Positions 7,453-7,952 of a stretch of DNA of 31,693 nucleotides are shown here, piece by piece. The stretch lies in IMG/VR virus record IMGVR_UViG_3300020470_000119, positions 1-31,693 of that record. One strand, 5' to 3'. Source of the DNA: a virus. The translations under genes and the position numbers were made by a program. Each line of letters opens with the position of its first letter. Within the stretch, counting starts at the first letter, position 1. The notes under the pieces were generated by a model. The model saw only the letters and a program-made list of their open reading frames with translations, ran no database searches and was not told the origin of the DNA.

Positions 7453-7481
7453 ATTATACTACAAAAAAAGAGGGGTGTCCA
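7453..7481 (-). promoter_or_regulatory. Sigma70 promoter embedded in a terminator
   Basis: Minus-strand TGGACA (7481-7476) is followed by a 17-base spacer and TATAAT (7458-7453). The -35 box lies in the loop and stem of the upstream terminator hairpin, and the spacer contains its seven-T tract. Transcription would start near 7446, giving a short leader with AAGGAG before the ATG at 7434. One mismatch from consensus makes this a strong early promoter candidate for the small-gene/thyX/2OG operon. Confidence 0.7.
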
Positions 7482-7487
7482 CCCCTC
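7463..7487 (-). terminator. Rho-independent terminator
   Basis: The inverted repeat GAGGGGTG/CACCCCTC (arms at 7487-7480 and 7477-7470 on the minus strand) is followed by seven Ts (7469-7463), ten bases after the TAA of the 47-codon gene. It ends the riboswitch-controlled transcript and overlaps the promoter of the next operon. Confidence 0.85.
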
Positions 7488-7496
7488 CTTTAAATT

Positions 7497-7640
7497 TTAA
7501 CTACAAGGTTTTGCCTTGCTTTTGCACTTTATGCCTCGATACATGAGATCAAGGTTTCGTTGTTGTGCTGCTTGTGCAAGGATTTCCTTGCGATAAGCAT
7601 CAGTGTCGTATTCGACACCACGGTAAGTGACCTTTGCCAT
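7497..7640 (-). CDS. DUF4278-like small protein (47 aa)
   Basis: The frame reads MAKVTYRGVEYDTDAYRKEI, then LAQAAQQRNLDLMYRGIK and CKSKAKPCS. The TYRGVEYD start and the second YRG unit resemble DUF4278, a short family in cyanobacteria and their phages with no known function. AAGG lies eight bases before the ATG and is part of a small TACC-TAA-GGTA stem (7657-7647), which could mask it. A glutamine-aptamer-like core ends about 30 bases upstream, and a terminator follows directly, so this is the last gene of the leader transcript. Too short for the usual ORF cutoff, but well supported by context. Confidence 0.75.
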   Translation of the reverse strand: MAKVTYRGVEYDTDAYRKEILAQAAQQRNLDLMYRGIKCKSKAKPCS

Positions 7641-7667
7641 TTTGGTTACCTTAGGTAGGGTGGATTA

Positions 7668-7870
7668 GACCCGTTCCTTCAGTCGGCTTTTGCGTCCCAG
7701 TGACATTCCAAACCCTCTACATCTCTATAATAGTTCTTATAGATCTCAACTATATCTGCCCTCGTAGAGGGAGATAAGTCTTTCTTTCCATTAACTCTTT
7801 CTATCATTACTGATAGATCAGAGCATGTAAAGGCAGCAGCGATTAGGAATTCCATACTGGAATGAACGAT
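7668..7870 (-). promoter_or_regulatory. Second glutamine-aptamer-like element with a 58-codon ORF in its P2 loop
   Basis: The 3' half at 7701-7668 has the hallmark core GGGACGCAAAAG, then GACTGAAGGAACGG, of glutamine riboswitches (glnA / Downstream-peptide RNAs). No local partner strands exist, but the copy ATCGTTCATTCCAGT at 7870-7856 supplies them: CGUUC (7868-7864) pairs with GAACG (7676-7672) as P1, and UUCCAGU (7862-7856) pairs with ACUGGGA (7701-7695) as a seven-pair P2 with one GU. The ORF starts at the next base (7855) and its stop codon UGA (7681-7679) lies in the conserved CUGAAGG. The split architecture is inferred from complementarity only. Confidence 0.55.
7679..7855 (-). CDS. 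Riboswitch-associated small protein (58 aa)
   Basis: The frame reads MEFLIAAAFTCSDLSVMIER, then VNGKKDLSPSTRADIVEIYK and ends CHWDAKAD. A hydrophobic start with CT, two helices and a Cys near the end (C11, C51) resembles short proteins I recall in marine cyanobacteria and cyanophages. It follows the first aptamer and has no Shine-Dalgarno; TTCCA-GTA-TGGAA around the ATG could form a local hairpin. Its last codons (HWDAKAD and stop) are read from the conserved core of the second aptamer, so this DNA is dual-purpose. It would be a 'downstream peptide' in the sense of the Downstream-peptide RNA motif. Function unknown. Confidence 0.75.
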   Translation of the reverse strand: MEFLIAAAFTCSDLSVMIERVNGKKDLSPSTRADIVEIYKNYYRDVEGLECHWDAKAD

Positions 7871-7871
7871 A

Positions 7872-7917
7872 ACCCGTTCCGAGTCGGCTTACTTGCGTCC
7901 CTTATGGGATGAACGAT
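7872..7917 (-). promoter_or_regulatory. Glutamine riboswitch aptamer (glnA / Downstream-peptide type)
   Basis: Minus-strand ATCGTTCATCCCATAAGGGA, then CGCAAGTAAGCCGACTCGGA and ACGG, folds as a three-way junction: P1 CGUUC (7915-7911) with GAACG (7879-7875), P2 UCCC-AUAA-GGGA (7909-7898), and a short P3 around GCCGACU. The joining GACGCAAGUAAG matches the conserved core of cyanobacterial glutamine riboswitches, also recorded in a marine cyanophage. Compared with the second copy the GAAGG segment before the P1 strand is shorter. It starts about 10 bases after a TATAAT box and precedes the 58-codon ORF, so it probably controls that ORF in response to glutamine. Confidence 0.75.
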
Positions 7918-7923
7918 ATGTGC

Positions 7924-7952
7924 ATTATAACACATTACTATGTATAAGACCA
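7924..7952 (-). promoter_or_regulatory. Promoter of the riboswitch transcript
   Basis: TATAAT (7929-7924) has only a poor -35 (TGGTCT, 7952-7947, 17-base spacer), as expected of an activator-dependent promoter. An alternative -10 of the TAN3T type, TAATGT, lies at 7937-7932. Transcription from TATAAT would begin right at the start of the first aptamer. Confidence 0.6.

Follow-up and report, generated by a model that had tools for sequence, protein, structure and literature searches.

A nested RNA related to glutamine riboswitches, predicted to fold around complete small genes in cyanobacterial viruses

The locus and its relatives

The window, meaning the whole stretch of 31,693 nucleotides that was analysed (IMG/VR record IMGVR_UViG_3300020470_000119), is part of a contig of a T4-like cyanophage, and the neighbouring genes are Thy1, a nucleotide-sugar epimerase and DUF4278. 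The features are all on the minus strand and are listed in Table 1; they comprise a -10-like element, two adjoining aptamer-like motifs of which the second encloses a 58-codon ORF, a DUF4278 gene and a terminator. The helices enclosed by the first and second motif are called P2a and P2b.

Table 1. Coordinates of the features in the window, in 5' to 3' order of the minus strand
Feature	Positions	Strand	Basis or remark
-10-like TATAAT	7924-7929	-	8 nt 5' of outer aptamer
Outer P1, 5' strand CGUUC, partner 7676-7672	7911-7915	-	folding, pair counts
P2a hairpin UCCC-AUAA-GGGA, short here, ORF-bearing in other phages	7898-7909	-	Rfam match, folding
J2/3 CGCAAGUA, 5' AGUA strand facing 3' GAA	7890-7897	-	equals RF01739 CGGAAGUA except third base
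P3, 5' strand AGCCGACU, partner 7688-7681, two C.A positions	7882-7889	-	covariation between motifs
Inner stem, 5' strand GAACG; read as first-motif P1 by the Rfam match	7875-7879	-	double changes, folding
Inner stem, 3' strand CGUUC (5' strand of the P1 first proposed)	7864-7868	-	G-C to C-G double change in four relatives
P2b, 5' strand UUCCAGU	7856-7862	-	covariation, folding
58-codon ORF (phrog_504, T4-GC 430), the P2b loop	7679-7855	-	pN/pS 0.29
P2b, 3' strand ACUGGGA, within ORF	7695-7701	-	covariation, folding
Inner junction CGCAAA, without AGUA	7689-7694	-	core listing, folding
P3, 3' strand AGCCGACU	7681-7688	-	covariation between motifs
GAAG, 3' strand of outer-aptamer internal loop, overlapping ORF stop UGA	7677-7680	-	matches RF01739
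Outer P1, 3' strand GAACG	7672-7676	-	Rfam model, folding
AAGG, likely ribosome binding site of DUF4278 gene	7649-7652	-	sequence
47-aa DUF4278 protein, downstream gene	7497-7640	-	PF14105 E 1.7e-5, phrog_5049
Intrinsic terminator closing the unit	7466-7491	-	terminator prediction; common in relatives

Relatives were gathered by a protein search, a phage BLAST and two DNA pattern scans of IMG/VR, giving a total of about 220 loci. The unique aptamers parsed from them comprise 191 split by an insert of 100-250 nt (141 in the second motif and 50 in the first) and 158 unsplit; an ATG-started ORF is present in 187 of the split ones. The invariance of P1, GACGC and the core tail is partly imposed, since parts of them were prescribed by the search patterns; P2 pairs 3-7 and the eighth P3 pair were left free. 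Kinship among the sequences was treated only through parsimony on ORF trees. All four combinations of ORF and short loop at P2a and P2b were identified: in the 192 composites with a readable P2a the ORF is in P2b only in 106, in P2a only in 11, in both in 34 and in neither in 41.

The usual order of the unit is promoter, nested RNA, DUF4278 gene and terminator. A promoter of the form TTGnnn-N16-19-TAnnnT ends 5-12 nt 5' of the outer P1 in 159 of 189 relatives (2.5% in random sequence), and most relatives have a spacing of N17; a TTGnnn -35 element is absent upstream of the -10 of the window. The -10 is covered by a palindrome, ATGTG-TTATAATG-CACAT at 7933-7916. Palindromes of at least 6 bp lie there in 133 of 189 relatives (random 4.9%), their sequence differing among phages while the symmetry is kept, and possibly represent an operator or a 5' hairpin. 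In 176 of the 178 loci where a gene could be read, the one after the core is of the DUF4278 type (YRG), and a terminator follows this gene in 131 of 179 relatives (random 1.9%); RNAalifold identified no conserved hairpin in the stretch from the core to the start of the DUF4278 gene. A manA RNA (RF01745) lies near the composite unit in P-SSM4 and P-TIM40 (L018 273-458 and L015 1209-1403).

At least four ORF families were identified in the loops: phrog_504, phrog_6471, phrog_13397 and a freshwater-type family without PHROG match, the first two being probably distant relatives (hhalign 81%). The pN/pS is 0.32 for first-motif and 0.29 for second-motif ORFs, and values of about 0.3 indicate that the enclosed ORFs are genes under protein-level selection. 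Members of the phrog_504 family begin with a short hydrophobic stretch and share two invariant Cys; the structure model of the family (input rows from phage records left out) is an alpha-hairpin with pLDDT 83, for which a PDB fold search gave no significant match, and a Pfam domain search of the enclosed ORFs tested gave no family above cut-off. The C-terminal DAKAD is encoded by the aptamer core and is strongly conserved because the core dictates those residues. A further P2a ORF family, starting MTKALLLLAWVPLLS, was identified in six loci (L079, L097, L099, L128, L159 and L167) with a signal-peptide-like start and a Cys pair; the one member tested had no Pfam or PHROG match. Attenuation through Gln codons was considered and rejected, the ORFs having 3.8% Gln and the one in the window zero.

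A host origin was also considered and rejected, as no phrog_504 relative was detected by tblastn in the collection genome_contigs. In a pattern scan of the same collection the element turned up on phage-like contigs alone, most of them from SAG/MAG bins, and the remaining matches were due to chance; across 201 genomes from a single host family, the frequency of the junction pattern was about that of the reversed control. Five of the contigs (L225, L227, L236, L238 and L239) carry the cyanophage element in bacterial or archaeal MAG/SAG bins, some assigned to Acidimicrobiia, Dehalococcoidia and Euryarchaeota, and are probably misbinned phage contigs. The start of a Nonlabens xiamenensis contig (L231, 1-120) matches the cyanophage riboswitch and DUF4278 leader, probably by contamination or an assembly artefact.

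Pairing across the genes and between the motifs

The preliminary description had proposed that two halves of a glutamine aptamer pair across the ORF, with the start codon directly after the 5' strand of P2 and the TGA inside CUGAAGG. The positions, the placement of both codons and the P2 helix itself (7 of 7 pairs, one G-U) are as it gave them. Its proposed check, covariation between the halves across the ORF, turned out strongly positive in the 187 ORF-bearing relatives: a 3' core kept beside a 5' half without complementary change was looked for, and the opposite was observed. These aptamers reduce to 59 distinct 27-mers, 57 of them aligned, in which the P2 register is conserved, with 96.5% of cells paired (87.9% in column shuffles) and a covariation score of 0.242 (0.092 shuffled) that was equalled by 0 of 500 shuffles. 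Slid registers pair at 59% at most. The exchange of partners between loci abolishes the match, the mean helix run being 5.83 with the true partner and 3.99 with a swapped one (z 18.5). Covarying strand sets include UCCUAUG/CAUAGGA, UCUUAUG/CAUAAGA, UCUCAUG/CAUGAGA, UCUAUGG/CCAUAGA and UCCUUA/UAAGGA. On trees made from ORF codons alone, same-branch double changes restoring pairs 2-5 number 10 in P2a (first-motif ORFs) and 19 in P2b (second-motif ORFs), more than the means of random placement. The comparative evidence thus indicates that the P2 match across the ORF is not due to chance. In 177 of the 187 the distance from the outer P2 end to the ATG is 3-5 nt, and most of the 187 have their stop within the aptamer core or the 3' P2 strand; the A of the start codon is predicted to be paired in 118 of 151 and the entire AUG in 47.

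As comparison with the relatives shows, the two motifs are combined in one nested RNA (7915-7672). Its outer part is an aptamer of the glutamine-I type to which the first motif contributes its 5' half and the second its 3' half, that is outer P1, P2a, CGCAAGUA facing GAAG, and P3. The P3 helix is extended by a second, circularly permuted copy of the junction, composed of the inner stem and P2b. The first motif contains CGCAAGUA and lacks the consensus GAA, while the second contains GAA and lacks AGUA; the AGUA/GAA internal loop of J2/3 we take to be loop E. Core parts co-occur near-strictly per locus (AGUCG with CGACU, AUUCG with CGAAU, AGUCA with UGACU), as do GACUC with AAAGCC, GACAC with AAUGCC and GACGC with ACGCC, and core lengths of 23 and 20 are mixed only in two odd loci, L111 and L177. 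The eighth P3 pair of type 1 is paired in 95 of 95 cases (U-A 69, A-U 19, G-C 5, U-G 2; shuffled mean 57.9, maximum 68), and the type 2 P3 retains all of its five pairs in 51 of 51 cases. Each of the six times that the eighth pair changes on its first side in the ORF tree, its partner changes on the same branch, and on 10 branches both P3 strands change length at once, between 8 and 5 nt. The type 1 P3 has two C.A positions, and the energy model did not predict this C.A-containing helix in the window. The outer P1 lacks covariation because its strands are nearly invariant, partly from being in the search patterns. L177 (6503-6824) has a three-part arrangement, in which a type 1 first motif precedes an entire type 2 composite whose P2a holds an ORF; this is possibly a fusion or duplication intermediate.

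The preliminary description had also placed a P1 across the ORF (7868-7864 with 7676-7672) and regarded the 3' core as an aptamer of its own, the second of two. The complementarity of this P1 exists but is not the one maintained in evolution, and the separate aptamer is contradicted by covariation, the Rfam model and folding in favour of the nested RNA. In four relatives (L062, L072, L115 and L124) the inner stem GAACG/CGUUC is replaced by CAACG/CGUUG; the nested stem survives this replacement, whereas both tandem P1s would be broken by C.C and G.G mismatches. With RNAfold, 41 ORF-less composites with short loops gave a higher probability for the nested outer P1 than for the tandem one in 41 of 41, the latter being at most 0.08 in all but one. 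In the window the pairing probabilities are 0.87 for the outer P1, 0.56 for the inner stem and 0.82 for P2b, and at most 0.005 for the tandem alternatives. What survives of the riboswitch-gene chimera suggested at first is the whole gene in a P2 loop, the covarying halves and a start codon overlapping P2; the layout of two aptamers with that P1 does not.

Codon choice was examined in folding models. Synonymous-codon shuffling lowered the mean probability of P2b from 0.76 to 0.42 and of P2a from 0.68 to 0.40. The ORF ends are closer together than in shuffles (p 4e-6 and 3e-4; long-gene controls p 0.2). The MFE z of the ORFs alone is -2.5 and -3.1 compared with -0.7 and -0.9 in long-gene segments; DUF4278 genes have likewise raised structure (z -1.9), so the signal may partly be general to these small genes. 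By these models, the synonymous codons of the ORFs favour the fold joining the aptamer halves.

Relation to known RNA classes

The glutamine riboswitch is the sole Rfam family above cut-off in the window. The first motif (7917-7871) matches RF01739 on its own strands with 35.8 bits (cut-off 35), and the second core (7701-7668) has no Rfam match, relaxed thresholds included. Short-loop composites spanning both motifs score higher (L042 41.0, L137 40.2 and L102 38.4 bits); in these three the model aligns the 5' half of the first motif to the 3' half of the second, with an insertion of 39-43 nt within P3. The RF01739 order of P1 CGUUC/GAACG, P2, CGGAAGUA, P3 and GAAG is found in the nested outer aptamer only, the third J2/3 base being C instead of G. 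This base is C in most phages, and affinity may differ as a result. A 99-nt glnA match published for phage S-CREM1 (PMC9964418) fits the nested layout.

Shared with the glutamine-I class (glnA, RF01739) are the outer P1, P2, CGNAAGUA, P3 and the GAAG core, as well as a DUF4278 gene downstream as in hosts. The phage form differs in that its halves are separated by about 40 nt where the loops are short and by about 200 nt or more where they enclose a gene, P3 is capped by the circularly permuted junction, whole genes occupy P2 loops, and the nested form was not detected in the host genomes tested. With glutamine-II (Downstream-peptide, RF01704) it shares CGCA after P2, the GGAACGGG tail and nearby small-protein genes, but here the small gene is inside the RNA and not merely downstream. 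Membership in this class was rejected for the window (26.7 bits, cut-off 33); single motifs of some relatives reach 33-35.7 bits. Tandem riboswitches (tandem glnA, glycine-type) likewise have two related aptamer-like motifs adjoining, each closing on its own strands, whereas the phage motifs exchange strands and share P3 and neither is complete alone; mismatches in four loci, an inter-motif P3 and a tandem P1 probability of about zero were found. Coding regions in peripheral loops of folded RNAs are known from group I introns with homing endonuclease genes, tmRNA and RNAIII-hld. In contrast to these, the present RNA is of the metabolite-aptamer type and its start codon overlaps the closing stem; features of splicing, tagging or antisense action were not seen here, and no group I intron was identified in the window.

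Proposed regulation and alternative readings

Host type 1 and type 2 glutamine riboswitches turn on gifB and DUF4278-type genes (PMC6316151). For the phage RNA we infer glutamine binding, the direction of regulation and a contest with ribosomes. Glutamine would stabilise the outer aptamer, freeing the DUF4278 ribosome site (ON), and the closed aptamer would bury the ORF start codon in P2b (OFF); ribosomes could translate the ORF only by melting P2b, P3 and the outer P1. The outputs of ORF and DUF4278 gene would then be mutually exclusive, decided by glutamine against ribosomes. The phage core CUGAAG or CUAAAG is complementary to the ribosome-site region CUUYAG, so closure of the outer aptamer would release the ribosome site. 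A-cores face U in 54 of 54 cases and G-cores face C in 31 of 89 (Fisher 4e-8, relatedness uncorrected); the combination of ACUAAAGG-type cores with CUUCAG-type sites thus occurs in 0 of 54 against 31 of 89, an avoidance expected if the core is the anti-ribosome-site strand. The site of the window deviates from the CUUYAG pairing, with AAGG in CCUAAGGU, and its expression platform may therefore differ. A candidate ribosome site for the ORF, GGAG in the loop of the inner hairpin, accompanies fifty of the second-motif ORFs, and most of the others have no candidate. Taken whole, the explanation by a nested RNA, a gene-filled P2b and competition of glutamine with ribosomes is considered likely.

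The alternative that fares best, though still unlikely, grants the nested glutamine riboswitch and makes the ORFs passive fillers of tolerant loops, without cross-regulation of translation and ligand binding, P2b serving to hold the aptamer folded. Both loops are short in 41 of 192 composites and ORF presence varies among relatives, from which it follows that the RNA core does not need the gene, and folding of the ORF interior may only shorten the loop. However, the close spacing of start codon and P2, the pairing of its A in most cases and the stop inside the aptamer core argue that ORF initiation and the closed aptamer would be sterically exclusive.

Less probable still is a descendant of a glutamine riboswitch now blind to glutamine, which could act as a constitutive structural leader or a decoy, or could sense some other ligand. 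The altered third J2/3 base and an inner junction without the AGUA/GAA pair agree with it; on the other side, the outer core otherwise equals RF01739, short-loop relatives reach 38-41 bits, above the cut-off, and the RNA precedes DUF4278 genes like the host glutamine riboswitches (PMC6316151).

The preliminary description had assumed two tandem aptamers that are independent of each other, with the ORF splitting the second, and we regard this model as very improbable. Tandem glnA RNAs have been reported (PMC2864571) and provide a precedent, the own strands of each motif are complementary, and the first motif alone passes the Rfam cut-off; yet P3 covaries between the motifs, GAA is missing in the first and AGUA in the second, the double changes of the inner stem disrupt both tandem P1s, and the folded tandem P1 is near zero. 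A reading that dispenses with RNA structure, and explains the P2 match by coding constraint on the WDAKAD tail plus a conserved leader, can practically be dismissed: UGGGAC encodes Trp-Asp in many members, but the 3' variants AAGGAC, AUAGAC and GAGGAC lose Trp while the untranslated 5' strand changes to match, P2a with other ORF families behaves alike, and same-branch compensatory changes contradict it.

As read from the sequences compared, cyanobacterial viruses carry the nested RNA, with one complete small gene or two inside its fold, in well over a hundred distinct sequences. In the open-licence literature no earlier description of a glutamine-type riboswitch enclosing whole genes was found. 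On balance we lean towards a riboswitch class in which complete genes are structural aptamer loops, coding is co-selected for protein and fold, ligand binding and translation are exclusive, and canonical and circularly permuted aptamers are interlocked through one helix. The textbook riboswitch sits upstream of the gene it controls, whereas here the stems would close around whole genes and the half-sensors would be interlocked. The contest of ribosome and metabolite becomes testable in one transcript of roughly 450 nt, and the RNA is a naturally occurring example of a gene whose silent sites have apparently been selected for an RNA fold, here one that builds a binding site. Nested composites may also be present among the RNAs annotated as tandem glnA, and the arrangement supplies a context for several small gene families of marine and freshwater cyanophages.
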